Below, piece by piece: positions 14,012 to 60,371 of a DNA stretch of 64,000 bases (the stretch's first letter is position 1; every line of letters starts with the position of its first letter). Under the pieces are notes generated by a model. It was not told where the DNA came from. It was given only the letters and a program-made list of their open reading frames with translations, and ran no database searches. This stretch comes from Peromyscus leucopus (lineage: Eukaryota; Chordata; Mammalia; Rodentia; Cricetidae). Made by a program: the position numbers and the translations under genes. Location: assembly GCF_004664715.2 (NCBI RefSeq), contig NC_051069.1:7827501-7891500 (forward strand). The letters are read 5' to 3'.

Positions 14012-14140
14012 GTTTGTGGATACCCCCGGCTGGGTTTCATGGAGGAATCTTTCCTGATTACCAACATGAATCCCAGAGCAGCTTCTGCTTCTCCCTGGAC
14101 AGAATGAAAGGCCAGCTGTAGCCAGACGCACCTGGCCACC
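14012..14140 (+). promoter_or_regulatory. Slc24a1: Exon 2 5' UTR of SLC24A1 with upstream ORFs
   Basis: A strong 3' splice site (tctcttcctctctag, AG at 14010-14011) suggests that exon 2 begins at 14012. Before the main start there are two upstream ORFs. One runs 14039-14107 (23 codons including stop, with a second in-frame ATG at 14066). The other is 14104-14121, overlapping the first stop as ATGA. The main ATG at 14141 sits in an optimal context (gccaccATGG), so it is probably used despite them. Confidence 0.6.
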
Positions 14141-17100
14141 ATGGGGAAACTGCTCAGGATGGGGACACAGGAGAGGCGGCTATCCCGGCGACCAAAGAGG
14201 CTTCACTGGAGTCGCCTCTTCTTCCTCCTGGGAATGTTGATCATCGGTTCCACCTATCAGCACCTGAGGAGACCCCAGAACTCCCCCTCACTGTGGACAA
14301 AAGTTTCTCCCCAGCAGCCTATTAAATTGGCCAGCAGGGACCTCCCCAGTGATGAGATGATAGCGGTGGGCAGTGACCCTCCAGAGGCTAGTTCTGAAGT
14401 GGATGGTGAGATGCTGGCACCCCAAAACACAGTGATCAGGGATGAAGCAACACTTAGCATAACAATGGAGGACACCCCCAGCCCACCCAGAACAGCCAAG
14501 ATCACCCCAACGTCACCCAAGAATAACTACAGCCCTATAGCGGCTGGCACAGAAAGAGAAACGGAAAACACGCCCTCTACACCTAGCAGGGCATCGTACC
14601 ACTTCATCTCATCGTCAGGCAGAGAAAGAATAAGAAGCTATACCCCAGTACCCAGGGGAGAAAGGAGGAACTCCATCCCAACTCACTCCAGGGAAAGAGA
14701 AGGAAGTATACCTCATCCCCAGCAGGTGCACCGTCTGATACCACCCCCACAACAACAGAGAAAGACAGCAAAACCATGGCAACCTACAGGCTGTTGGAGA
14801 CCAGACCTCCCGAGAGAACAGCGGAAGAAACCGCCGCAGCTTCTTTCAAGAGAGTGGTTCCGAACACCCCAACTTTCTTAACCCCTGAAGTAGAAGGAAG
14901 CCTCTTGACTTCTCCAAGTTTGGTGGAAGAGAACACCCTGGTCAGTCCTAGAAGAGAGGAACACATCAGCTCTACCGGTCCCCAGGGAGCAGCCCCCCAG
15001 CACTCCCCGGCCACGTCTGAGGAGGAAGAGACAGTGAACACCAGGATGGGCGTATCCCAGCAACCATCCAAGCTGCCACTGTCGCCTGGAGAATCAGCGA
15101 CCCCTTGTCCAGAACCAGTGTCCCAACCATTAGAATCACCTCAGCCACCAACAGGGAGCTGGCAAAGAGACCTCCCACGTCCCACAGTACCCCAGTAACT
15201 CCCAAAGGCAAGGCACTCCTGACCACACAGGTCCACCGCTGTGTGGTTGTGGAGCCAGCCCCAGAGGTCCCCGTGACCTCATCTCCGAGCATGACGGATA
15301 TCCTGTTCCCAGAGGCCCCCAGCTCCAGTCCCTCAGCTTTACCACCTGGCTGGCCAAACCTCCACCACAAGGCAGAGTACCCCCCAGACCTGTTCAGTGT
15401 GGAGGATCGGCGGCAGGGCTGGGTGGCCCTGCACATCTTCGGCATGATGTACGTGTTTGTGGCCTTGGCCATTGTGTGTGATGAGTACTTCGTGCCAGCC
15501 CTGGGAGTGATCACAGACAAGCTGCAGATCTCTGAGGATGTGGCGGGAGCCACATTCATGGCCGCAGGAGGCTCAGCCCCTGAGCTGTTCACCTCTCTCA
15601 TTGGTGTCTTTATCTCTCACAGCAATGTGGGTATTGGCACCATTGTGGGCTCTGCTGTGTTCAACATCCTTTTTGTCATTGGCACCTGTGCCCTTTTCTC
15701 CGGGAGATCCTCAATCTCACCTGGTGGCCCTTGTTCCGCGATGTCTCCTTCTACATCCTTGACTTGTCCATGCTCATTCTCTTCTTCCTGGATAGTCTGA
15801 TTGCCTGGTGGGAGAGCCTGCTGCTGCTGCTGGCCTACGCCCTGTACGTGTTCACCATGAAGTGGAACAAGCAGATTGAGCTTTGGGTGAAAGAGCAGCT
15901 GAGCAGGCGGCCAGTAGCCAAGGTCATGGCCCTGGGGGACCTCAGCAAGGTAAGGCAGTCTGGCTCCAGCTTTGGGGTCTGAAGGGACGGGGGGGTGGGG
16001 GAAAGCTAAGAACTAAAGCGTAGAAAGAGCAAGATTGCTGGCTGTCCCTTCATTACAGCGTGCCTAAGCTCGGTGATTAGCGAGTGTGACTGTGCCTCTT
16101 CCCCAGTCAATCCTCTACACTGGCTGGGACTGTGATCCTTATTTTCAGAAAAGAAATCGAAGCAGGGAGGGAAGTTAAAACATTCATCCAGGGTCACACA
16201 GCAGGCAGTGGGGGCAGGGTTTGAACCCCGATTGGCCTGAATGGATGTGTGGAAATGCCATTTGAGTCAGCTTTGGAGAAAGAAGAGATACCAGGCAGGG
16301 GGTGGGGGAATGGGGAGTGATAATCTCTTCCATGCACACGGAGTCCAGAGTTTAGGCGGCGACATCATTTTCAAGTATGTTTTTCTCAGGCTGGACTTGG
16401 AGAAGAGTGTGACTTAGATGGGATCTGGGGAAGGAGGTGTTTCCCCCCCCTTAATGTTGGAGATGAGGAGAGCGCCACTCGCTGACAAGCCAGCCCTCAG
16501 GCATAGCCCTCAGTGTCTACCAGAGGCCTGACATCAGACATGCTGATCCTGGAGCTTTTCTGCCTCTGTGAAAGGCTTTCCTGCTTAAATTTATTGGATG
16601 ATTCAGTGACTTGATTGGGGAGGTCATCTCTGAAAGCAAATCGCATTTAGGGACCCCTTGCTTTCCTATTCCTGGAGGGTGAGCTTGGGTAAAGATTGGC
16701 TCATAGCCTGTCTCTCTGGTCTCGGAGAGGCTGTTAGTGGGAGCAGAAATTTGCGTGCAAAGAGCATAGGACTTAGCTACTTAATCCCGAGCAGTTTTGA
16801 TGACTGGGCAGGATGGCTACCAATCTCAGCAACAGGAGGCAAGAGATTAAATTGCTTCCTTTAGAATTTTTGAAATAACACAGTGTTCTGGTCAGAGCAT
16901 GGAAACAAGAGCCAGATCCCCTGAGTTCTAATCAATGCTCCTTTTCAGTTAATGGCATGACCTGGATGGGTCTCTTCTGGGCCCTTTCCCAGTCTCTAGG
17001 GGAAATGACAGTCCAGTTCATCACCAAAAGGTCCTGCCTAACTCTGACTTTTATGATGATGTCTGAGTCCAAATGAGTTCAGTTCTGGTGGGACTCAGCA

Positions 17101-23900: not shown

Positions 23901-26900
23901 ACGATCAGGAGGCAGGTTCAGAGGAAGCCCAGCTCTCTCCAGGGGACAGTGAGGCTTCTAGAACATAGAGAAAGGACATGATGTGATGTGCTTGGAAACT
24001 CACTGTGCTGAGGGGGTGGAGGATACACCTGAAGAGGAACAGATCCAGGCTCACGGACTTTCTGGGGCTGGAGGCCGGAGAGTGCAGGCCAAACTGAGCT
24101 GCCTGAGACCAGGTCTGCTGCTTCACTGGTGTGGGCAGTGAGGCAGAGGGGAGATACGCTCACAGCCATTTGTAATTCCAGTTCCAGGGGATCCAACTCC
24201 CAGTTCCGGGGTTCCTTTTCTGGCCTCTTGAGCACCAGGTGTGCACATGGTACAGATACATACACATAGGCAAAATACCCATTCATATTAAATTTTAAAA
24301 GTTAAAAAAAAAATGTTAACATGAAAGTTTGTCAATCTGAGTTTGATTCCTGGAACTCACAAAAAGTGGAAAGAGAGCCAACTCCACAAAGTTGTCCTCT
24401 GACTTACACACAGACACACACACACAGACAGACAACAGACAGACACACACACACACACACACTTACCCTGTCCCATGTGACAAACTGTGTTTGAGCCCCC
24501 CCACAAAAACAACAATAATAAACAAATTGTAGTAATTTAAAGGAAGGAAATGGCTGAGAGCTGTGTATTCATGTAACCTCATCATTCAAGGTGGGCCAGG
24601 GCTATGTAGCAAGATCACGCATCCCCCTGTGAAAGGCTTCAAAGCTAGAATCGCATACGTACTGAGACAGCCCATGCACACACACACACACAAGTATTTT
24701 AGCTTAAAAACGTCTGAACAGCAGAAAGTCATTAGAGTTGTGCACCATGGGGCAAAGGTCAGTCCCTTGGCTCTCTGGGGACAGTCCCCAAAGTAGCATG
24801 CCCCCACCTCTTTGCCTGGAGAAGCCTCAGTGGGAGAAAGTTGGATCTGATGAACGGTGAGATGGGCGGGACTAGAAGCCAGTGCTGGGTGAAGCTTCTT
24901 TCTCAATAGACTCACGGGTGTGACGTGAAAACGTTAGGGGCCCTTCTGAGAATGCACAGCTCCGCCTTCACACCCGGTTTGGTCATTTCAGCTGTCTCCC
25001 TCACGTGTATGCCCATTCTTTAACAGCAGGTATCTAGACACTCAGGCCTTCTCCACCTTTCAGAAGCCCTCCCAGCCCTCTACGGCCTGCAGGAAGCCTT
25101 CCCGGCCCGCCGTACACGGTGGCACTGTCTCTGCTTCTTTTGTTGTGACCTGTGCTGTGCTTTGCCTTGTATCTGTGTGCTTTGTCTCCATTCCTTTCTG
25201 AACACAGACTCCGTGTCCTAAATGTCTCTTCTCCCACCAACACAGTCCCTTATAATAGCTCAGTATAAGAGTGGGTGGCCTGTGGTCAGGTGGTATTTTC
25301 TGTATTTTCAGAGCTGAGCAGAGAAGGAGGCTGTTCCGTTTCTGGGTGTGCCTTGCTGGCCAATGAGGGAGGCAGAGGGATGTAAAGACAGTCACTGAGC
25401 AACTGTTAATAACCTTGGTGCCTAAAGACAGTAGCAGAGGCCACCTGGGATTGTGTATGCACTCTTCTTACCTTGGTGGAGAGCCACAGGTCAGGGAACC
25501 AGAGCCAACTACATCAGGAGTTCACTGCACGGTAAAAACAAACAAACAAACAAACAAACAAACAAACAAATCCAGAATCTAGTGGCTGGCGGTTTACGTG
25601 GCACTCTGTAAAGAAGACTGGGGCAGGAAGATCACCACAGATTCAAAGGCAGCTGGACAGCCTGGGCTAGCTAGTGCACTCATCTCTAAAAACAGCTAAA
25701 TGATTGGACTCGAGTTGAATAGACAATTCACATATCACTCAAATGGCATTTCAAGGCTACGAATGCCAAGTGGGTCTAATGACTTCATGTTTCTTCATCT
25801 TGGGTGTGTAGGGTGCAGCAGGCAGCCTCACAGCTTCCCAAAGACATAAGTACTTACCTGACCCCAAAGCAAGATTTTAGAATCACAGGATGTGCTATTG
25901 CTGCCCAACTTTCAAGGGGAGGGCTGTTTTAGCAAGCGGGACTGAGGGTGGGGTGCCCCTAAGGGGGTCATGGAGAAAGCTTTATACAAGAATCCACCCT
26001 GCACTTCCTGAGGAGGAACAAAGGATTCAGGTTAGCAGAAGGCATAGAGGCGGCGTCTTTGGTATAGGGAAGGGCATGGATAGAGAGGAGTAGAAACAGA
26101 CGATGTGAATCTCTCCATCCACTTAGTAAATACACCGCGCCTTTACCATGTCTGTTCACACGCAAAGAAATCGGGGGAAATGCTAGGACAGCAAAGAATA
26201 AGCATCTGTAAGAGAAGCACAGCGGGAGGAAGGTGACATTTAAATGGAGACCCGAAGCATGAGGCACCAAAGCAGGACAAACAGGAGGAGGAAGAGCCTG
26301 GGATGCCCTTTCCAGGCAGGCAACCACATCTGAGCCAAAAGGTGGTCGGCATGTTGAGATGTTTCCTGAAGATGGATTAGCTCCAGGGTGTTTCTGGGTT
26401 GCATCAGCATCTTCCCCAGAGAGAGGGACAGGTAGGGCAGAGTCTCTCCATGACGTCTGTGATTCATCTCTTGAACTCTGCTCCCCTCTGCAGCCCAGCG
26501 ATGGTGCCGCCGCCGTTGAGGAAAACGAGCCACAGGATAATGAGAGGCTAAAGGTGGGTGTATGAAGGTTACCCAGTGGAGACATTGCAGGGTTCCAGTT
26601 TGAGCAGGGTTATTGGTGGGTCTTGGTATGAGTGGGGACACCTCAGGGTCTCAGCATATGTGTGCACATCAGGGCGCTGTGGTCTCAATGCTGTGGAACC
26701 TGGTCCATCCTGGGAGGCTTGGGAGATTCCTGGGAGCTACCTCATAACAGGGAGCGGTGGCGGGGGGGGGGGGGGGGTGGGGGGGGGCTGGGGGGCAGAC
26801 TGTGTGGTGAGGGCTCTTAGAGCCACATGGTGCTAGATTGGGAACTATCTCTTTAACATCACAGCTCACTCTGTCCCGAGTCTCCTGTATAACCTCAGGT

Positions 26901-29900
26901 TCTTTATCTATAAGATGCAGTTTGGACTAGAGAAACTCAAGTCATACTTTCCAGTCCCAGGATTGATTGATAAAAGTTCAACTACTGGTGGCCTTAGCAT
27001 ATCCAGAGCTAAGGAACTAGGGGTCAGGGCCGAAGGTTTCTGAAAGAGTAGCCCAAGGCACCGCGTGGAAGGCCACAGCCACTAGGTGGCGGAAGAGTTC
27101 AGCTGGGACGGGATGGGGAGGCTGAACGGGGTGTCTCCAGCGGTAATCTTCCAGTATTTCCTGGTGTCACGGTGAACAAACGTGTGTCACATCTGTGTGC
27201 AGTACAAGTGTGTGTACTTCGGTGCCCCTGAAGGTCTCTGGGCACCAGAGTGTAAAGTCAAAATGGGCTCGCGATCCGCAGACTGGGCTGCGAGTTTGAC
27301 TCAATTCCTGCTGGGCCTTGGACGTTAACAACCCTTTGCGTTTTCTTCTTTCCTGTGGATGGGGTTCCCAGAGTTGCTGACCCCTGGACATGGGGCAATT
27401 GGGAACACAGTCAGGCACGATGTGTGGACGGTCAAGGGCTGTGCCTGGCGCAGCAGCCTGCCCGTGTACATGTGGACAAGGGTGTGTTTCTAGAAAGGTT
27501 GCTTGCAATGAGGTGCAAACCTTCCCCTAACATGGTACCCCTGATCCACATGACCTGTTCCCTGTGGAGGCTGTGGGGGGATTCGTGCACGGTGCAGAAG
27601 GAGGAATCAGGAGGATGAGAGGGATTTGGAGGTGAAGGAAGCGGGGGGCTCAGAGCGAGGGGCACCTTCTCTCTGGTCTCTGTGGGAAGGAGGCCCCCCT
27701 GCAGCTCCTGCCCTGCCTGCCCTGGGCAGGGCCCCACTGAGGCCTGTGCGGCTCTCCCCTTGCTCAGCTCCCGTCCGTGCTGACCCGAGGGAGCAGCTCG
27801 GCCTCACTCCACAACAGCATCATCCGCAGCACCATCTACCACCTCATGCTCCACAGCCTGGACCCCCTGGGGGAAGGTAAGCAAGGCCTCCTTAGACTTG
27901 CTGGTCCGCCCCATGGGTGCCTCCCCTTTTGCTACTGGAGAGAATCTGGGACCTGCCAGTGGTAGTGACAGTGGGCTGGGCTGGGAGGGACAGAGTTACC
28001 AGAAGAGGGGGTGGGGGTGGGGTGACAGCTAGACAGTATGGAAGACAGGGCAGAAGTATGACCTGGGCTCACCAAGACAGAGCCGCATGGAACATGGTTC
28101 CTGGGGTCCTCAAGTAATATTCCACTGTTTCCCTGCCTCGGTGTCTCTGACTGTAAAGTGAAGGGCCTTATCCACAGCCAGGACACAAATGCCATGTGGC
28201 CTATTTGGATCTGTGTTGGGTCAGATCCAATGTCTCACAGGTTACCTGGCCTTGGATGATTCAGGGGACACCTCCTCCACAGGCCCGGGGGATTCCTCTT
28301 TGCTTTGCATTCGGCTCTGGAGTCCTAAAGGATGCCCTGGGAGATGCCGCAGCCACTTCCAGGGAGCAGAGTGTAGTGTTTAAGGTGCTGAAGTTGAACC
28401 TGACAAATAACAGCAGCAGAGGAGAGTCCACCTTACCATCTTCCCCTCACTACCCCACATCTCTCTTGCACCCTACTGCCTACCTCTCAGGAACTCTCAT
28501 GTTTCCCTTTGACCCCCCTTTTCTGGGTCTCTGGTGCAGAACTGAGCCCAAGCAAGGAGGCCCACCAGGAAAAAAGCTAGTTTTGGACAAAGCCAAGGCA
28601 TGCAGTTAGGCAGGAGAGCCTGATAATGGCACAAAAGAATGAGCCCCAGGGAGACCCCTCACTGGCCTTTCTGGTTAAGGGACACATTTTAGGATCTCAG
28701 ACTTTCATTAGGCCCCGACTTACCCCTTCAGACACAATGCAGGAGTTATGTGTTTAAAAGTATGTTGTACTGGGAAAAGCCTTGTCAAGGACGAGGCAGC
28801 AAGCCTTGGCATCGTACACGGGAGAAGCCGCCCCACGCGAACAGCACTTCTGAGGGGTGAGCGGACTGGGGCAGCCTCAGGTCTGAAGTCTGGAGTAGAC
28901 CTGGCCTGGCTTTCAAAAGGACTCTAAGTCATGCCTAGCATTCCCAGCAGAACCACAGACTCTAGCCAAGCCCCGAAAACAAAGAACTTCTCCTGAGTGG
29001 GCTGTGGGGCTCCCAGACCCGGCCCCCTTGTGAGCATCAGCGGCCAGCTGGCCTACTTGTCCTAACAGGATTATGGGGTGTTCAGGCCAGGCTGAGGTCA
29101 CAGGAGATTGGCACTAAGGAGATGATCCAGCCATGCTGGGTGGGGAGAGGGCACTCCAGGGGACAGTGACAGGGAGACCCGGTATATGGACTGTGGGTGT
29201 GGTAAACCAGGGGCCACCCTCGAGGTGAATAACTGCAGATGTGTTCTGGGGTGCAATCCTGCTCAGAGCTGGAGTCTGGGCATTTGCCAGCACCTCCACC
29301 CAGGAGGGGCCAGGTCCTCCCAGGCCTTATGAGCCCAAGCCATCCCAGATTTCCATTTCCCTGGCAGCTTCCAGATGGCCATCCAGATGTTTCCACCCTT
29401 CCCAGGTGGAGCTTCCCAGATCCAGCTTTCTCCACAGGAGATGTTCCCTGTCCTCTGAACTCTCACTTCCCCAGGGTGATGTCTTTCTCCCTCAGGTCCC
29501 ATGCTTCTCTTGCGCTCCCAGTCAGATGGGTGTGTTCCAGAGCAGCAATGGGAAGTGAGAGGCCGGGGCGAGTGAGGAGGGTCCTGAGTTCCTCCAGCCA
29601 GCCGTCAGCTGATGTGCCAGGGCCGGGATGGGGATTCCAGGACGCCCTCCTTTGATGGCGAGTCTCTGTTAATCAGGGCACTGTAGCTCTTGATTAGTGC
29701 CTAGAGATCCTTGGGCATTCTGGATCGAGGAGACGGGGTTGTTCTGAAGTCCTGAACCCTCCAGGAAGATCAGCTGGGTGCCAGGACACCTTGAGGACCA
29801 GAGGGGCCATAGCTGTGACTCTGCAAATGGCACTGCCTGCCAAGGCGGCAGCAGCTGAGCCACCCCGAGGGTTTAGGGCACAGGTAGCAGGAGGAAATGC

Positions 29901-32648
29901 CAGGATTGGGTTTCCATTTGCTGCCTACCCTGGAGGCGGGCAGAGGCTTCATTCCGTCCAACTTCCCAGACTGCTTGCCTAGCATCCTTGCCTGCACTCC
30001 CTCCCCATGAGATGATCTCGGGGTCTCTCCACTCAAACCCTCTGTTTCCTGGGTGGAAAGCGGCTGGCCATGATCAGTTCACCATCATCCTCGTCACAGC
30101 CGAAAAGTAGCACAGTGACATCTAGGGGCTGTTATAAATACAGTCGTGCAGAAATTCATCGACCATCTCTACAAGCACTACTCTGGAAGGCTTTGCAGGC
30201 ATAGGGTCTGAGGGATGGATAGGCTAAGAAATCAGCCAGCCGGGGCCATCACTACCGTGCACCTGGTCAAGCCCAGCTTCCCACCCAGGTCCTCAGGCTC
30301 CAGCACGGGTTTCTGATGGTATGGGGGAAGCACTCCCATCTCCTGGGTCCTCAAGTCCCTCAAGTCTGGGTGTGTCACGGTGCTGCCATGTGCAGAAGAC
30401 GCACAGGCTTCCCCAGTAACCTGATGTTCATGGAGAGAGCTAGCCTGCATTCAGCACAGAAACCACGTGGCCATCACTTCCTGGGCCCATTTGCACCATT
30501 GTCCTGCCGGCCTCTGCCCTCCCTTGTGCCACACAGCTGGCAGTGCAGGGGGGAGGGGGAGGGGGGTGGGGGGTGGGGGAGGGCACTGAAGCTCCTGCTT
30601 CTCCGTCCATCCCTTTTTCTTCTCTACGTCAGAGTTACTCATGTGAAGTCCTTCGCAGGTCGCCTGGCACAGTCACGTAGGGAGAGAGGTGGCCTGTCTG
30701 TTCTTTTCCTTTCCTGGAAATCAGGGCAGCTATTCTGTGCCTGCCACACCAGAGGTCTCCAGTAAAAAGCTCTCCCAGTAACACGTGACACCCACTTGGA
30801 ATCTCGGTGTGTCTGGGATCAAAAGGGTATGACCGGAGCTCGATCCCTCCCCCCTTCTGCAGGAAGGGGAAGGCTCCTGGGCAGCAGGCACAGGAGGCGC
30901 TGCCCTGTCTTCTAGGAGATTTGTCAAGAGTAAGCTGCAAGGGACCTTCCAGATCATCTCGTCCAAGAGTGGCAAAAATGGCCTCTCTGCCGTCATTTCT
31001 TCCCCTCCCTGCCCAACATGGACATCACTGACTGATCCTGACAGGGAGTCTCCTACCAGATGCCTCAAATGAGCCATCCCTTGAGGTCATGAAGGAAATG
31101 CATCCTGCAGGCTGGTCCCCGATCCAGCCACATGTTTATCAGGGAGGAGACAGGGGGAGCAACTCGCCCTAGGTCATGGCCAGTCAGGGAGGGCGGGACT
31201 TAGACTTACAAATGGGGCCCCAGGGGTAGGCCTGGAGAGCTCAGACACAGACACCACAGGCCTAGGCCGGCCTTCCCTGCCCTCTCCCTGCCAGGCTGTG
31301 CAGGGTCCCGACTGGACACCGAGGTCCCAGATAAGATGTCTTCCTTTCTCCTCCGCAGCCCGCCCCTCCAAGGACAAGCAGGAGAGTCTGAATCAGGAGG
31401 CCAGAGCCCACCCCCAGACCAAAGCAGAGGGCAATCCAGACGGTGAGAGGACGGCCAGAGAGGCCGCCGGCCGGTTGTCTCCTGCCCCACTTCCCGTCAC
31501 AGCCAGCGTAGAGCAGACACGGAGGCAGTGCCGGTCAGCGGTCAGCGTCACTCGGGCTCTTCCTGCAGTGATGTTTTTCTGCCACTGGCTCCCGGTAGCT
31601 TCCTCCTTGCTGCCCTCAGATGGGGCAGGGAAGGGAAGGCCAGGGGAGCACTCAGCTCCCACATCTTATTTCTTGAACCTCCCCCAAGTGAGACGCGATT
31701 CCTTCTCGCTGTGAGGTCTGCGCGAGGGCATTGTCGCTAGTGAGGGGTCTGATATGAGCAGCACGACTGAGGGACGCAGCGACAGGAGCCTAGCAGCTGT
31801 TGGCAGCTGTGACCCAGGAAGTAGGTCCGGAATTGCCTCATGGGCTCCGCACACCAGGTTTACCTGGCTTACTCAGCAACCCGTAGAGGGAGACACGCGG
31901 CAGCCACCCTTTCTGTTCCACAGCCGAGGAAACCAGGGTTCAGGGAGATCAAGCGAACTGCCCAAAGCCACACGGCCAAGAGGTTGTTAGCCTGTAGCTA
32001 ACCTGAGCACTTCAGAGTCTCCAAGGCCCCCTTCTCTGCAGTTCTGATCCATGGCCTCAGAGCAGCTTGCCTTTGAACTCAGTGGGATCCTTTTCAAAGG
32101 ACCAGCCCTCCCTGCTCCAGTTACCTAAGTAGTTCCAGCATCCCTGGCACAGTTCCAGGAAATGCCTGTAAACACGGAGGGACGCTTCCCAGACGCCCCT
32201 CACGTCCATAGCGTACTCAGGGGACAGAGTAAGCACGGCTCCCAGTTACGCCCCCCCCCCCCCCCCCCCCCCCCCGTAGTTTCTCCTGCCTGTCTCTGCA
32301 GCTGCTCCCAGAACCTGCTCTGCTCTCACCTAACCCGTGTTTGTCCTTTAAGAGGAGGAGCCAGCCCAGCTCCCTGCGGTCACGGTCACTCCAGCCCCTG
32401 CTCCAGACGCCAAGGGAGATCAGGAGGAGGAGGATCCAGGCTGCCAGGTAGGCGCCCAGCCTCTGCACAGCTGGAGGGATTTCAGAGGCCAAGGAAGGGC
32501 TTTCTGGCCAAAATACTTCCTGCTTGAAAGCCTGAAATCCCATTTAGGTTTATCCCTGTGGGATGAACTATGCCCCTTCTCTGAAATCATTTGAAAAATG
32601 CTCACACTTTCCAGACCCAGAAAGTTCATGGCAACACCCCAGCATGAG

Positions 32649-33884: not shown

Positions 33885-36643
33885 CTGTGTAGCCCTGACT
33901 GTCCTGGAACTTGCTCCATAGACCAGGCTGGCTTGAACTCAAAGACCCACTTGCCTCTGCCTCCCAAGTTCAGGGATTAAAGACATGTGCCACCTAGCCT
34001 GGCCTAGGCATCCATTCTAATAAGTTGCCCAAGGTAACAATTTTGGGAGCCAGGGAAGGTGGTACGGCTGGGTGGTCTCATACCTAATGACTTAAATGAA
34101 CTGTCACCTCCAGGAATCCTGCTCTTGTGATGGGGCCAGAGGAGGGAGGCAGGGATGACGTTAGACAAATCTCCTTACTCTTCATTCCTAGTTCAAAGCC
34201 CAGGCATCCCTGGATAGTAACTCTTTGCTTCTTCATCTTCAGTTGAGTTCTCCTCAACTCTGGTTGAATATTAGGATAAAGTGGGAAAACTTTAAAATGT
34301 TGTTCTCTGCCTACCCATTGAGTCAACATCCCCAGGGCAGCTCCTCCAGTATCCTGGCTTAAGAAATTTTCAGTCAGGCCAGGCATGATGGAGCATGCAT
34401 TTAATCCCAGCGCTCAAGAGGCAAAGGCAAGCAAATCTCTGTGAGTTCGAGCCCACTCTGATCTTCATAGCGAGTTCCATGCCAGCCATGGCTGCACATG
34501 GAGACCCTGTCTCAAAACAACGGGGAGAAAAAAGATGTTTCCAGGTTGAGAATCACTGAGTGTCCTTTGAGGGTTATTATGACATTTGTTACAAGTGCCA
34601 TGTTTACTCCTTAAACACAGGGGTCTTTGCTCAAGGGAATAGACTACCATGTTACCCATTGGTTTCAGATCTAATTGGACACCATCAGAACTAGTAGTTT
34701 CTAGTGTGGAGATACATCAAAGCTCTGCAGATGAATACTCTAAAATAATGATCACGTGAACTGTGGACAATTGCTTTCATGTCAGAGCTTCTAAGTTAGC
34801 TGGTATACGTTGAGAGAGGAAATCTGCATTTCTTTTTTTTCTTTTTTCTTTTTTTTTTGTTTTTTTGAGACAGGGTTTCTCTGTGTAGCTTTGCGCCTTT
34901 TCCTGGAACTCACTTGGTAGTCCAGGCTGGCCTCGAACTCACAGAGATCCGCCTGCCTCTGCCTCCCGAGTGCTGGGATTAAAGGCGTCCGCCACCACTG
35001 CCCGGCCGGAAATCTGCATTTCTAATAAGATCCCCAAGATAACAATTTTGGAAGCCAGGGGCTCCTTTAGCCCTGGAATGTTAGTGGTCAAGAGGCCAAG
35101 AATTGAACTACAGCTGTTCAAGTCCCAATACCATCACATACAAACTGTGGACAATGGGCAGGTTAACCCTCTCTACTCTAGTTTCTACACCAGTAGTCAG
35201 ATGGGTACAAGTCTATACATTGATGGGTCCATGAAATACAGCAACCACTGTTATTATGAAGTTGTTTACTATTGCACTTGGCCTGTGAGAATGGGCAACA
35301 AATAGGTGTATTATCATCATCTTACACATTCGATATGAGAGTTCGGGAGTTTAGTGGACTTAGCAAGGTGCTCTGACGAAGCATAGCAGGCCACGGTAGG
35401 CAACACGGAAGGAAGCCTAGTACATCAGACCAGGGAGGAGATGGTCCTGTTCAGTGTGCGTAGGCTCTGTGTTAAGTTTTGGGTGCCCCGCTCATGCTAT
35501 GGCTAATTAGCACAAGTTCATCTAACCGTGGCCGTCTCTATGCCGTAGCATGCCGGATGCTGGAGAACCTAGCAACCTTCAACTCAGGAAGGGACTGTCC
35601 TGTGGAAGAGTACTTAGGCTTGTTCCATGTCTCCAAATGTAAAACTGTGTGTCGTGGTGGGGCTTTGATACACATATTGACTTCAAACCTGCCAATGCTG
35701 TTAGAGGTGGCAGATGCCGCCGCGGGTGGTGAGTGCTCCAGCCTCGGAAAGGACCAAATCTCGGGGGGACGACTGCTGGGTAGGACGTTGCGATGCCGTT
35801 TGCCCGTCTTTGCACCAGTTTCCCCCTCTGAACCTTAACTCTGCAGATGCTCTCTGACAACAACAAAGCAAAACCAGGGAGCAACGGGGGAACAAACCAG
35901 GCAGGGTTGTTACCGCTCAGTAATCTGTTGTCTTTGGATTGCAGGAAGATGTGGGTGAGGCTGAACACACAGGAGATGTGACACGTGAAGAGGGGGAAAC
36001 TGAGGCAGAAGGCAAAGAAGATGAAGAGGGGGAAACTGAGGCACAAGGAAAAGAAGATGAAGAAGGGGAAACCGAGGCAGAAGGAAAAGATGAACATGAA
36101 GGGGAAACTGAGGCAGAAGGAAAAGATGAGCAAGAAGGGGAAACTGAGGCAGAAGGAAAAGTTGTTGACCTTGAAGGGGAAACTGAGGCAGAAAGAAACA
36201 ATGAGCAAGAAGGGGAAACCGAGGCAGAAGGAAAAATTGTTGAACTTGAAGAAGAAACTGAGGCAGAAGGAAAAGTTGTTGAACTTGAAGGAGAAACTGA
36301 GGCAGAAGGAAAAGAAGATGAGCAAGAAGGGGAAACTGAGGCAGAAGGAAAAGATGAACAAGAAGGGGAAACTGAGGCAGAAGGAAAAGATGAACAAGAA
36401 GGGGAAACTGAGGCAGAAGGAAAAGTTGTTGAACTTGAAGGGGAAACTGAGGCAGAAGGAAAAGAAGATGAACACCAAGGGGAAGGTGGAAGCCAAGCTG
36501 ACGACGCTGAGGTAAAAGCCAGTGAAGGTGAAACAGAAGCCGATGCTGACAATCCGTGTGAGACCACCCAAGGTGAGAAAGGTGCGGATGGTGAAGGGGG
36601 AAGCGATGGAGAGGACAGCGGAGAGGAGGAAGATGACGAAGAG

Positions 36644-36677
<34 letters not shown>

Positions 36678-39600
36678 AAAGCGAGGAGCCTCTGTCCCTG
36701 GAATGGCCTGAGAGCCGGCAGAAGCAAGCCATCTACCTCTTCCTCCTGCCCATCGTCTTCCCACTGTGGCTGACGGTGCCCGATGTACGGAGGCAGGTGA
36801 GAGGACCCAGCGGTGCCTCAGGCTGCCCATCCTGAGAGAGGGCAGCCGGCCTGTAGGGACTGGGAAGCAGGCTGGGAGCCCTCGCTGGGCAGACTTCCCC
36901 CGTGAGGATGTGGGGAGGGATGTAGCTCTGCAGGGGACCACGTGTCTGGGGACCTCTGATTCAGGAGCCAGAGACCTCAGGTGTGCCTTACGGGTGCCGC
37001 CATGAGCAGTGTGAACCAGTCCATCCTGGATTACAATCTCAGCATTCTGGTCTTGGTTTGGGGACCACAGCCTTGTCCCCATCCACAGTTCACAGAGATA
37101 TTCTGAAAACCCAGGGTGGTAATTGCTATGTCTCCACACTCGTTCTCTCTCTGTAGGGAAAAGTCTAATACACTTCACCTAAAGTCCAGAGAGGAGTCCA
37201 GTCCAGAGGTCTGGGGGAAGGCGCAAAGCCAAACTCAAGTACTTAGCTGGGTCTGATTCTAGAGCAAGCCCACAGCTCTCTGGAGCCTGGTTCTGCTGAA
37301 TGCCTGCTAGACAGGTCAGGCTCCCCACATCTCCCCCACATTCTCCCTGGGGAAAGGGCCACAGCTTCATGCAGACCGCTCCTGATCTTCCTCATTATTA
37401 CCCATCCACTAGGCCTCATCACATTTTGGAGTTCCCTCGGAGAGGGGGCCAAAGACAGTAGCTTCTGCAACTTATTTCTCGTCCCTTTCTATCTCCAACA
37501 GGAGTCCAGGAAGTTTTTCGTCATCACCTTCCTGGGATCCATCATCTGGATAGCCATGTTTTCATACCTCATGGTTTGGTGGGCTCACCAGGTGAGTGGA
37601 CAGTAGCCCAGTCTTCTGGCAGCAGCAGGTGCTAGTGTTTGCCACACATTCCCAGTGTCCAGACTCTACCAAGATCCAGTGTACCCGTGCTTCCCATGCT
37701 GTGTGCAAAGGCCTTCAAAGTAGCCATTTATTCCATCCATCATTTTCCAAGTGTGGCTTTCCTATCTTAACTTGTATTCAGCTGTTTCACGGCACAGGAA
37801 GCCCTTCACATTCAGATTCCAGTGGTCCAGGCTGTCCTGACCCCTCAAAACTGGTGAACATCCTTCCCTCACTGAGCTGACTCAGTTGGGTCTGCTCGCT
37901 GGCATTGGACCAGTGTCTGCCTGAGGACCATGAGATGTTGCGTTCTGCCCGGAACAGCACTTACACAGAGTCCTGACTGGAAGCTTTTCTCTAGGCTAAA
38001 CACACAGGCAGTACTGCCCAAACTTCTGTCCGCAGCCTGGCTTAGCTCCCAAGACACTGCACAGGTCACATGTCCAGAAAAGAAATGTTGACAGAGCAGA
38101 CTATTGGAGGGGCAGTTCTCTGGGGCAGGCAGAGTTGTCACAGTTGGGATGACAGTGAAGGACAGACTTGGTATCATTAGAATTTTAGTATGGTCAGCGA
38201 AAGCTGTGTGGTTCTCTGGAGCCTGGAGCTGGGGCCTGGCTTTCTCCCCGGCCCCATCCGCACCCCTCTCTTGCAGAGGGCATGTGCAGACCTTAGTGCT
38301 TCTCCTGTCAAGTAGTGTCCACTGGTGCTGAGAACTCTCAGATTTTCCACCTGGTGCTGCCATGGTTCCTCATCACTGTTGCTGTTTTGCCAGGTTGGTG
38401 AAACCATTGGGATTTCGGAAGAGATTATGGGTTTGACCATCTTAGCAGCAGGCACTTCAATTCCTGACCTCATCACCAGTGTGATCGTTGCCCGGAAAGG
38501 CCTGGGAGACATGGCTGTGTCAAGCTCAGTGGGCAGTAACATATTTGATATCACGGTGGGGTGAGTGGCAATATTCCTTCCTAAGGCATATTCAGAATAA
38601 CTGGAGACTGCATTGGCTCAGTTGGCTGGTTTTCTTCTTCATTCATTATAGATGCAACAAAAGGGCATTTGTATGGCTTGTCCTTATGAGGCAACGATAC
38701 ATCCTCCCTTCATTCACCATAGCCTGAAATGTAACTGACTGAAACTTCCAGATGAACTGAAAGTGAGGTCCATTCATCCCATTTCCCAATACAGTGAAAT
38801 ACTGCCCTTCAAGGAGATAGAGAAAGAAGGGCTGGAAGAAGTGGAAGGAGCCATTCCAATTCTTCTTCGAATGTGGGCCCCTGCTAGCTCAGAGGCTTTA
38901 CACAGCCCTTTGTATAAACAGGAGCTACCCACCCTCCTGTTTAATGCCCCCTGCTGGTCCTGGTCTCCCAGGGTTGTCAGAGTACATGGCCGCTTTCATT
39001 TCCCTGGTCATGTCTTGGATTTGGTTATTTTGATTGGAATTTGTGTACATGGATGTTAGGGAGGGGCAGTGGGTGGTGTGGGTGTCAGAACAATCTAATC
39101 GCTAAAGAAAATTTATTCTGAGGTAGTTCTTAGTCATAAACATTGAGAAATTTGTCACACATTGACTATGGTTAGTCCTATATACGTCACTAAACTTTCA
39201 GGGGTAGGGGTGGGATGGGACTCAGACCCAGGACACTTTTTCAATGGTTTTTTGAGATGGGATCTTACTTGCCCAGGCTAGACTCAAACTGAGGATCCTT
39301 CTGCCTCAGTGCTAACATGCCTAGCTCCGAGTACTTGTTTTAACCTAGCTTCTCCTCAATAAGCCTTGAACCCTTTGCCAAGTAATTTTGTTTCCCTAAC
39401 CTGTGCTTCCTCATCAGTGAACTGAGGTTAATAATTTCTGCTTCACTTCATCTTGTATGTGTGAGAAATAAGAACTCTGAAAATGGGCTGGAGAGATGCC
39501 TCAGGGGTTGAGTGCTGACTCTTCTTCCAGAGGACCTGAGTTCAATTCCCAGCACCCACATGGCAGCTCACACCTGTCTGAAACTCCAATTTCAGGGGAC

Positions 39601-39976
39601 CCTGACACCCACGGCAAAAACACAAATGCACATAAAAATAAAAAAATAAAATACATTAAAAAAAAGAACTCTGAAAACCTTGAAACACTAACCAAGCACC
39701 TGGGGCCTCACATTTTTCTTTTGCAGCTTGCCTGTACCCTGGCTCCTCTTCTCTCTCATCAACACACTGCAGCCTGTTCCAGTCAGCAGCAATGGCCTGT
39801 TCTGTGCAATTGTCTTGCTGTTTCTCATGCTCCTGTTTGTGATCTTCTCAATTGCATCGTGTAAATGGAGAATGAACAAGATCCTGGGCTTCACGATGTT
39901 CCTTCTTTACTTTGTATTCTTGGTAATCAGTGTGATGTTAGAAGATCGAATCATATCCTGTCCTGTATCTGTCTGA
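14012..39976 (+). CDS. Slc24a1: SLC24A1 (NCKX1) locus: rod Na+/Ca2+-K+ exchanger, coding exons 2-10, disrupted in exon 2
   Basis: SLC24A1 extrudes Ca2+ and K+ from the rod outer segment in exchange for Na+, resetting Ca2+ during the light response; loss-of-function in people causes recessive congenital stationary night blindness. Nine coding exons are placed: 14141-15949, 26494-26553, 27768-27876, 31359-31442, 32353-32447, 35945-36796, 37502-37591, 38394-38560 and 39727-39976. All junctions are GT-AG and phases match exon to exon. Seen in order are an N-terminal hydrophobic segment, a long Ser/Thr/Pro-rich extracellular loop, the first membrane cluster with the alpha-1 motif, a Glu-rich cytoplasmic loop, and the second cluster with the alpha-2 motif. 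Ignoring the exon 2 lesions, the span would code for about 1,170 residues (human about 1,100). Three one-base deletions in exon 2 break the frame, so as written the gene cannot make an exchanger. Exon 1 (non-coding) was not found. Confidence 0.95.
14141..15949 (+). pseudogene. Slc24a1: SLC24A1 exon 2, frame broken by three one-base deletions
   Basis: This exon encodes the N-terminal hydrophobic segment ([13 protein letters not shown], about residues 25-37), the long extracellular loop and the first membrane cluster. That cluster holds the alpha-1 motif [10 protein letters not shown], whose essential cation-binding Glu is at 15582-15584. The start is the ATG in gccaccATGG. Homology to human NCKX1 follows one frame from 14141 to about 14701, shifts at about 14702, again at about 15057, and again at about 15700. 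Each shift is consistent with loss of one base, the latter two within short C-runs. After the third the original frame is restored and continues to the donor (AAG/GTAAGG at 15950). The unshifted reading stops at 14879-14881 after 246 codons, so it would leave no exchanger domain and should trigger nonsense-mediated decay. Confidence 0.93.
17662..17852 (-). repeat. B2 SINE, antisense
   Basis: 'gctgggaattgaacccaagtcctctggaagagcagc' pattern, broken into the B2 body, then a reversed head ending '...actctccagcac'. Confidence 0.85.
17997..18180 (+). repeat. B2 SINE
   Basis: A textbook B2: 'gggctggagagatggctcag', 'ttcaattcccagcagccac', 'ctcttctggcctgtag' and an aataaataaataaat tail. Confidence 0.95.
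18222..18316. repeat. (TA)n then (CA)n microsatellite
   Basis: About 20 TA units pass through a short mixed stretch into CA repeats ending at acatgcat. Confidence 0.95.
19127..19283 (-). repeat. B1 SINE, antisense (first of a pair)
   Basis: 'caagacaaggtttctctgtgtagcc' to 'gggattaaaggagtgcaccacc'. A second antisense B1 follows after a TTTC array. Confidence 0.9.
19287..19424. repeat. (TTTC)n tetranucleotide array
   Basis: About 130 bases of ctttcttt repeats with ttttc variants in the middle. It lies where the reversed A-tail of the following B1 would be, so it probably grew from that tail. Confidence 0.95.
19425..19572 (-). repeat. B1 SINE, antisense (second of a pair)
   Basis: 'cgagacagggtttctctgtgtagc' to 'gggattaaaggcatgtaccg', of the cricetid 'gtgcacctttcctgg' type. 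Confidence 0.9.
20540..20600. repeat. (TC)n microsatellite
   Basis: An almost pure CT dinucleotide run. Confidence 0.95.
20884..20962. repeat. (GT)n then (CTGT)n microsatellite
   Basis: About 16 GT units, then about seven CTGT units and a degenerate end. Confidence 0.95.
23221..23572 (-). mobile_element. Solo LTR of an endogenous retrovirus-like element, antisense to SLC24A1
   Basis: An LTR of 340 bp at 23227-23566 begins TG and ends CA on the plus strand. It is flanked by a perfect 6-bp duplication, gcttgt (23221-23226 and 23567-23572), as expected for class II (ERVK-type) integration. On the minus strand it carries an AATAAA signal (cttaataaagagc). No internal region remains, so it is a recombined solo LTR. 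It lies in the intron between exons 2 and 3, opposite to SLC24A1 transcription. Confidence 0.85.
23587..23675 (+). repeat. ID-type SINE, diverged
   Basis: 'agctcagtggtagagcacttg' is the tRNA-like ID head; a short A-rich tail follows. Confidence 0.7.
23710..23870 (+). repeat. B1 SINE
   Basis: 'cacaccttttatcccagcac' to 'acccctatctcgaaaaac' with an A-rich tail. Confidence 0.9.
24165..24310 (+). repeat. B2 SINE, 3' portion
   Basis: Only the B2 3' half is recognisable ('ttttctggcctcttgagc', 'gcaaaatacccattcatatt'). Confidence 0.65.
24404..24466. repeat. (CA)n-rich microsatellite
   Basis: Interrupted acac/agac repeats. Confidence 0.9.
25533..25571. repeat. (AAAC)n microsatellite
   Basis: Nine or so aaac units. 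Confidence 0.95.
26494..26553 (+). CDS. Slc24a1: SLC24A1 exon 3
   Basis: Sixty nt, phase 0 at both ends, reading PSDGAAAV... to ...DNERLK, which matches the start of the cytoplasmic loop of human NCKX1. The acceptor is ctcccctctgcag and the donor AAG/gtgggt. Because its length is a multiple of three it can be skipped without breaking the frame. No lesion. Confidence 0.9.
26761..26793. repeat. G-rich low-complexity run
   Basis: Near-continuous G tracts; a G-quadruplex could form on the plus strand. Confidence 0.85.
27079..27092 (+). promoter_or_regulatory. CTCF-like motif, forward
   Basis: CCACTAGGTGGCGG matches the CTCF core consensus CCASYAGRKGGCRS at every position. It lies in unique, non-SINE sequence of the SLC24A1 intron before exon 4. 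Binding is not shown by sequence alone. Confidence 0.55.
27768..27876 (+). CDS. Slc24a1: SLC24A1 exon 4
   Basis: 109 nt, phase 0 to 1, reading [17 protein letters not shown]... to ...HSLDPLGE. This is the conserved Ser-rich and SLHNS-containing part of the cytoplasmic loop just after the first membrane cluster. The acceptor is cccttgctcag and the donor GAAG/gtaagc. Open and well conserved. Confidence 0.92.
30545..30590. repeat. G-rich tract, G-quadruplex-like
   Basis: Many runs of four to six G separated by single A or T bases on the plus strand. It lies in the intron between exons 4 and 5. Confidence 0.8.
31359..31442 (+). CDS. Slc24a1: SLC24A1 exon 5
   Basis: 84 nt, phase 1 at both ends (a frame-neutral cassette), reading [18 protein letters not shown]... 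to ...EGNPD. It aligns with the ESLNQGARAQPQ segment of the human loop. The acceptor is ttctcctccgcag and the donor ACG/gtgaga. Open. Confidence 0.88.
32251..32275. repeat. C homopolymer (25 bases)
   Basis: A pure C run in the intron about 80 bases upstream of the exon 6 acceptor. Its length is prone to assembly error. Confidence 0.95.
32353..32447 (+). CDS. Slc24a1: SLC24A1 exon 6
   Basis: 95 nt, phase 1 to 0, reading [23 protein letters not shown]... to ...DPGCQ, nearly identical to the human [13 protein letters not shown] segment. The acceptor is tttgtcctttaag and the donor CAG/gtaggc. Open. Confidence 0.92.
32650..32696. repeat. (CA)n then (TA)n microsatellite
   Basis: About 19 CA units then a short TA run, in the intron after exon 6. 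Confidence 0.95.
33787..33883. repeat. (TCTG)n and (TC)n low-complexity tract
   Basis: Mixed tctg and tc repeats that run directly into an antisense B1, probably its expanded reversed tail. Confidence 0.9.
33884..34005 (-). repeat. B1 SINE, antisense
   Basis: 'tgtgtagccctgactgtcctgg' to 'gggattaaagacatgtgccacc'. Confidence 0.85.
34377..34530 (+). repeat. B1 SINE
   Basis: 'ggccaggcatgatggagcatgc' to 'gaccctgtctcaaaac'. Confidence 0.85.
34838..35008 (-). repeat. B1 SINE, antisense, well preserved
   Basis: A T-rich reversed tail, then 'gagacagggtttctctgtgtagc' to 'gattaaaggcgtccgccacc'; the CpG-retaining end suggests a young copy. Confidence 0.92.
35945..36796 (+). CDS. Slc24a1: SLC24A1 exon 7: acidic tandem-repeat loop and start of second membrane cluster
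   Basis: 852 nt (284 codons), phase 0 at both ends, open throughout. It begins [16 protein letters not shown], then has 13 imperfect units of the type (G/E)ETEAEGK plus a 3-5 residue linker (DEQ, EDEQ, VVEL) from about 35985 to 36480. An acidic run of Asp and Glu follows (36622-36690). It ends in a hydrophobic segment ([17 protein letters not shown]) that opens the second membrane cluster, then VPDVRRQ. Human NCKX1 has a comparable but differently ordered Glu-rich loop. The acceptor is ggattgcag and the donor CAG/gtgaga. The antisense Ser/Phe-rich ORFs here are shadows of the repeat. Confidence 0.95.
35982..36480 (+). repeat. Slc24a1: Coding tandem repeat, 13 units of about 33-42 nt
   Basis: Each unit contains a near-constant core, ggggaaactgaggcagaagg, followed by a variable linker whose length is always a multiple of three. 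The purine strand is the coding strand. Recent internal duplication is suggested because units 9 to 13 are almost identical. Confidence 0.9.
36797..38393 (+). other. Slc24a1: Introns flanking SLC24A1 exon 8
   Basis: Unique, SINE-free sequence apart from exon 8 at 37502-37591. Nothing else recognised. Confidence 0.75.
37502..37591 (+). CDS. Slc24a1: SLC24A1 exon 8
   Basis: Ninety nt, 30 codons, phase 0 at both ends, reading [20 protein letters not shown]... to ...VWWAHQ. This is a membrane segment of the second cluster, almost identical to human. The acceptor is ctatctccaacag and the donor CAG/gtgagt. Open. Confidence 0.95.
38394..38560 (+). CDS. Slc24a1: SLC24A1 exon 9, alpha-2 repeat
   Basis: 167 nt, phase 0 to 2, reading [20 protein letters not shown]... 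and ending ...[10 protein letters not shown]. It contains the alpha-2 motif [12 protein letters not shown]; the essential cation-binding Asp is at 38466-38468 and is intact. The acceptor is gctgttttgccag and the donor GGG/gtgagt. Open and strongly conserved. Confidence 0.95.
38945..38957 (-). promoter_or_regulatory. CTCF-like motif, reverse
   Basis: TGCCCCCTGCTGG is the reverse complement of a CTCF core (CCAGCAGGGGGCA). It is in unique intronic sequence, pointing toward the forward motif at 27079. Binding is an inference. Confidence 0.5.
39484..39665 (+). repeat. B2 SINE
   Basis: 'gggctggagagatgcctcag', 'ttcaattcccagcacccac', A-rich tail. It lies close to the exon 10 acceptor. Confidence 0.9.
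39727..39976 (+). CDS. Slc24a1: SLC24A1 exon 10, C-terminus
   Basis: Phase 2 entry; reads [20 protein letters not shown]..., three membrane segments, and ends ...RIISCPVSV then TGA at 39974-39976. This is the conserved NCKX1 C-terminus. The acceptor is cacatttttcttttgcag. Open with no lesion. Confidence 0.95.

Positions 39977-47749: not shown

Positions 47750-60371
<12,622 letters not shown>

Follow-up and report, generated by a model that had tools for sequence, protein, structure and literature searches.

Three one-base frame breaks in the large first coding exon of a rodent SLC24A1: a probable local consensus error, with recent gene loss as the main rival

The SLC24A1 locus and its coding exons

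The window, the whole 64-kb stretch of DNA that was analysed, corresponds to positions 7,827,501-7,891,500 of a 118.8 Mb contig and carries SLC24A1 (NCKX1) on the + strand, with INTS14 to its left and DENND4A to its right, both on the - strand. The human SLC24A1 reference is matched from residue 1 to residue 1099 with the exons in order, and this near full-length NCKX1 match together with the conserved gene order points to the SLC24A1 orthologue. Nine coding exons were located, several of their ends being set by hand from the printed sequence; nine is also the number stated for placental SLC24A1 in the part of PMC10671557 available to us. The largest of them, the first coding exon (exon 2), runs from the ATG at 14141 to CTCAGCAAG at 15949, where the donor gtaagg follows. 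It is succeeded by a small 60-bp exon at 26494-26553, which is in frame, has ends set by hand with CAG before and GTGGGT after, and shows 54.5 % identity to the human reference (E 2.8e-4). The exon at 27768-27876 (83.8 % to human; flanked by ag and gtaagc) is likewise in frame, as are those at 31359-31442 (3' end by hand) and 32353-32447, both placed by tblastn and the printed sequence.

The exon at 35945-36796, whose 3' end was set by hand, encodes an acidic repeat and the start of the second transmembrane half and is fully open, with 0 stops. Tandem Repeats Finder (TRF) describes the acidic cytoplasmic-loop repeat at 35986-36472 as having a period of 36 and 13.1 copies; the spacing is 36 or 39 bp, and 12 of the 12 unit intervals are divisible by 3, these being related copies and hence not 12 independent tests. 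The array is a slip-prone structure, yet it is in frame. Its copy number may differ between individuals. Downstream lie an in-frame exon at 37502-37591 (tblastn and printed sequence; 3' end by hand), the in-frame exon with the alpha-2 repeat at 38394-38560 (3' end by hand) and the last coding exon at 39727-39976 (5' end by hand), which is in frame, ends in TGA and is 96.3 % identical to human over 82 residues. The alpha-2 match, at 38391-38561, agrees with the human reference in 57/57 residues, its span including an edge codon outside the exon. The SLC24A1 splice sites are AG/GT and both alpha-repeats are complete; judged by sequence motifs, the two repeats of the cation/Ca exchanger fold, in 15051-15698 and 38394-38560, appear intact.

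Three frame breaks in the large exon

NCKX1 homology in 14141-15949 is spread over three reading frames that are joined by three -1 steps. It was traced by tblastn with a human SLC24A1 query that locates exons and frames and gives no exact identity. Block 1 (14141-14701), which we take to cover the N-terminus and the start of the ectodomain, lies in the ATG frame and has no stop; the underlying frame 2 match aligns human residues 1-193 to 14141-14722 at 60.5 % identity. Block 2 (14704-15048) continues the ectodomain in the next frame, again with no stop, and corresponds to a frame 1 match of human residues 164-350 at 14632-15111 (37.2 %). Block 3 (15051-15698) comprises the end of the ectodomain and the first transmembrane segments with the alpha-1 repeat, and derives from a frame 3 match of residues 330-547 at 15048-15701 (72.9 %). 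Finally, block 4 (15701-15949) returns to the ATG frame and leads to the donor, with residues 546-630 matched in frame 2 at 15695-15949 (92.9 %). The open reading frame 15021-15800, which holds the alpha-1 region, matches Na/Ca exchanger structures (NCX/NCLX) with a best E-value of 5.8e-12. Chance homology of the exon blocks is excluded by tblastn E-values of 1e-23 to 1e-129.

The steps were placed by eye from the frames of adjoining blocks. The first falls at 14700-14705 in an AAGGAA context and is located only to a few bases, the second at 15048-15050 in a GGG context, and the third at 15700-15704 in a CCGGG context within the membrane part of the protein. Each equals one base lost (formally also two gained), and all three lie at or beside short runs of 2-3 bases within 1.0 kb. 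As a consequence of the first step, the frame opened at 14141 closes after 246 codons at 14879-14881, the end of the open reading frame 14108-14881 and upstream of the exchanger domain; translated from the ATG, the present sequence would yield no exchanger segments. The earlier note, made from the letters of this DNA, had described NCKX1 homology passing through three frames of one exon and returning to the starting frame, each change equal to one lost base and the first leading to a stop before the exchanger segments. The tblastn comparison agrees on all these counts, and the frame breaks as such are confirmed.

Beyond the three steps, neither the four blocks of exon 2 nor any of the eight other coding exons showed another lesion. 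In-frame stops number 0 in the four blocks and the seven exons tested, and 0 in the small 60-bp exon. A look for signs of relaxed constraint gave 0 stops, AG/GT splice sites kept and an acidic array in frame, a pattern that a very recent loss would share. An old pseudogene is unlikely, since no further lesion was seen. When the exon was searched against its own genome (2.475 Gb, 1,840 contigs), the one full-length match was the exon itself and the other three matches listed were short (53-90 bases); no second full-length copy was found in this search, which scored the best candidates only. Rodent relatives did not appear in two contig collections, one of viral contigs (0 relatives) and one of genome contigs (7 loci, all bacterial). 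A Rfam scan of the window gave no match at gathering score.

Background frameshift rate and other rod genes

The neighbouring genes offer a local control. The 3' exons of DENND4A, a gene that extends to window coordinate 123230, were placed by protein match at 52877-60371 on the - strand. Over residues 1 to 1618 of the reference protein every matched exon of DENND4A lies in one frame, a few edge residues apart; the piece at 52877-52975 (residues 1619-1658, 45 %) is too weak a match to use. For INTS14, the matches cover residues 1 to 391, the rest lying beyond the DNA fetched, and each matched exon is in a single frame. Stops in the alignments of both genes sit where the match overruns an exon edge.

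A broader sample came from a RHO search of the genome, which listed 117 matches. Five RHO rows and ten other opsin-like rows, all split by introns, were omitted, leaving 102 GPCR-like matches, and 94 of these contain a stop-free open frame that spans 300 aa or more. Among the other eight, read by eye, seven look like exon pieces of intron-containing genes, presumably NPY1R, GALR1, OPRD1, OPRM1, two tachykinin receptors and LPAR1. The eighth, an olfactory-receptor-like gene at C1:101452500-101454700, has a single in-frame TAG and is an apparent pseudogene. One-base breaks were noticed in none of the 102, in a check that would miss receptors with both halves scoring weakly or with a break beyond 300 codons. 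The background would come to ~99 kb free of frameshifts on an assumed 1.05 kb per gene, and the resulting bound of about 0.03 per kb is optimistic because some broken receptors would be missed. Under a uniform error rate, 3 frameshifts in 1.8 kb have P about 3e-5; at the 95 % bound, about 0.5 such cases would be expected genome-wide. No raised frameshift rate was found in the unrelated conserved exons of DENND4A, INTS14 and the 102 GPCR-like matches, and generally low assembly quality was not seen there either, a result with which a purely local error is still compatible. Uniform background error being improbable, an error, if any, would therefore have to be local.

Of the wider surroundings, it may be mentioned that a 70-N run, either an assembly gap or a stretch whose letters were replaced by N, lies about 19 kb beyond the window's left edge, and that A78, A83 and C25 homopolymer runs occur within the 164 kb read around the locus; the 70-N run and the A78/A83 runs would fit a hybrid assembly.

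Two other rod genes were examined in the same genome. For RHO, the whole set of exons (5 of 5) is in frame, and both the start and the stop codon are present. SAG gives in-frame matches from residue 26 to residue 405; its short first exon was missing from the matches, the match to the exon around residues 342-348 is short and weak, and for the last exon the figure is 63 %. Decay was thus found in neither of the two. RHO differs from the human reference at several residues (95 % identity in exon 1). ARR3-like matches were encountered on contig C24, which would presumably make C24 the X.

Interpretation and comparison with known systems

Alongside the frame breaks, then, the rest of the gene is in frame, and so are RHO, almost the whole of SAG and those parts of the two neighbours that were tested. 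We consider that the three one-base gaps probably represent a local consensus error. One poorly corrected assembly stretch of ~1 kb, such as a patch with low coverage or one produced by gap filling, may have dropped three bases from the consensus; the bases would then be missing from the consensus and not, we infer, from the animal. The animal would keep a working Slc24a1, whose product, to judge from its family, would extrude Ca2+ as the rod outer-segment Na+/Ca2+,K+ exchanger usually does. Such an error is favoured by three steps that are all of the -1 kind, lie within 1 kb and are accompanied by no other lesion. Furthermore, a local sequencing error is somewhat likelier than true loss because the remainder of the gene, like the two other rod genes, looks healthy. 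Base errors in assemblies can indeed mimic gene loss (PMC9355568, in the text available), and in one cricetid project a draft was gap-filled with about 5x PacBio and then corrected with short reads, as far as the available text of PMC7204510 describes it.

The number of stops points in the same direction. Per human transmission, 74.5 SNVs stand against 7.4 non-repeat indels (PMC12240836, in the part available). If indels are taken as ~1 in 10 of point changes and the share of 1-bp deletions among indels is assumed to be 0.25-0.5, neutral decay with three 1-bp deletions should bring with it some 60-120 substitutions across the gene as well as 1.9-3.7 new stops. Under these assumed ratios, the 0 stops observed have P 0.16-0.025, which makes a moderate argument against neutral decay. 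That the three steps lie close together in the gene is by itself weak evidence, since by our own estimate three random places in the coding sequence would fall within 1 kb with a chance of about 0.2. As a counterpoint to a consensus error, the assembly looks accurate where it was checked, in DENND4A, INTS14 and the GPCR-like matches, and no direct sign of a bad patch was found, the 64-kb window containing no N letters and the exon having a moderate GC content of 0.51-0.61.

The same low background frameshift rate speaks for the main rival, a possible but less favoured reading in which Slc24a1 is really broken, either by a recent isolated pseudogenisation or because the stock that was sequenced carries a defective allele. 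In that case the protein would end after 246 codons, ahead of every exchanger segment, and rods would need another route of Ca2+ extrusion. Of the three genes checked locally, only SLC24A1 has breaks, and there is precedent for its loss while other rod genes are kept, in golden moles and in the numbat, there with GRK1 (PMC10671557, in the part seen). Against a real loss, three deletions occur with no accompanying stop or splice lesion, three separate deletions in 1 kb are hard to fit into the short span of a recent event, and RHO and SAG are in frame; the stop-count argument is only moderate. In its strongest form, this reading would have Slc24a1, of which one full copy was found, lost very recently in a rodent that can see and whose rhodopsin and rod arrestin are in frame, an isolated loss of rod Ca2+ extrusion outside the burrowing mammals; we regard this as possible but less likely than not.

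General decay of the rod pathway in a rodent that lives underground, which the earlier note had considered by suggesting a burrowing cricetid such as a mole vole, is very improbable. SLC24A1 does belong to the eye genes lost mainly in subterranean mammals (PMC7671337 and PMC9355568, as far as their available text goes), but the two genes tested give no sign of broad decay, RHO (5 of 5 exons) and SAG (residues 26 to 405) being in frame, and a burrowing, eye-regressed setting finds no support. That the frames are used as they stand, through programmed ribosomal frameshifting or editing that would yield a full exchanger, is scarcely credible: all four blocks are open and the membrane part is conserved, but this would take three separate shifts, each at a short context unrelated to the others, and we know of nothing of the kind for SLC24A1.

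Should the consensus error we favour be the cause, this gene model must stay out of surveys of vision-gene loss. A real loss would instead represent a natural Slc24a1 null in a rodent whose other rod genes are in frame, and would reveal how rods handle Ca2+ with their main exchanger gone, a question prompted by the mildness of the mouse knockout: Slc24a1-deficient mice show no severe rod degeneration, according to work cited in the accessible part of PMC10671557. Literature found for Slc24a1 together with mole vole or Peromyscus came to PMC9355568 only, the available text of which names SLC24A1 in a general list.

In its overall organization, the locus resembles known SLC24A1/NCKX1 genes: its exons follow one another in the same order, it encodes a long variable ectodomain, an acidic repeat loop and the two alpha-repeats, and it has the same flanking genes, INTS14 and DENND4A; it differs in the three -1 frame steps of the large first coding exon. 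Studies of assembly errors that mimic loss describe the same kind of frame breaks in an otherwise conserved gene (PMC9355568); in that study, so far as its available text states, mutations were validated by independent evidence, e.g. a second assembly, whereas here a single assembly is at hand. Losses reported for golden moles, the marsupial mole and the numbat likewise involve frameshifting changes in SLC24A1, the numbat having lost both SLC24A1 and GRK1 (PMC10671557, in the part available for this and the following comparisons). Two golden moles are similar in that, save for a deletion in SLC24A1, their rod genes proved intact as far as they were examined, but that deletion measures 22-23 bp, lies in exon 4 and has a 3' boundary common to the two species. 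The marsupial mole is similar in having several lesions in the same large exon, but these include stops and insertions too and two individuals were compared, whereas the present exon has only 1-bp steps, seen in one assembly.
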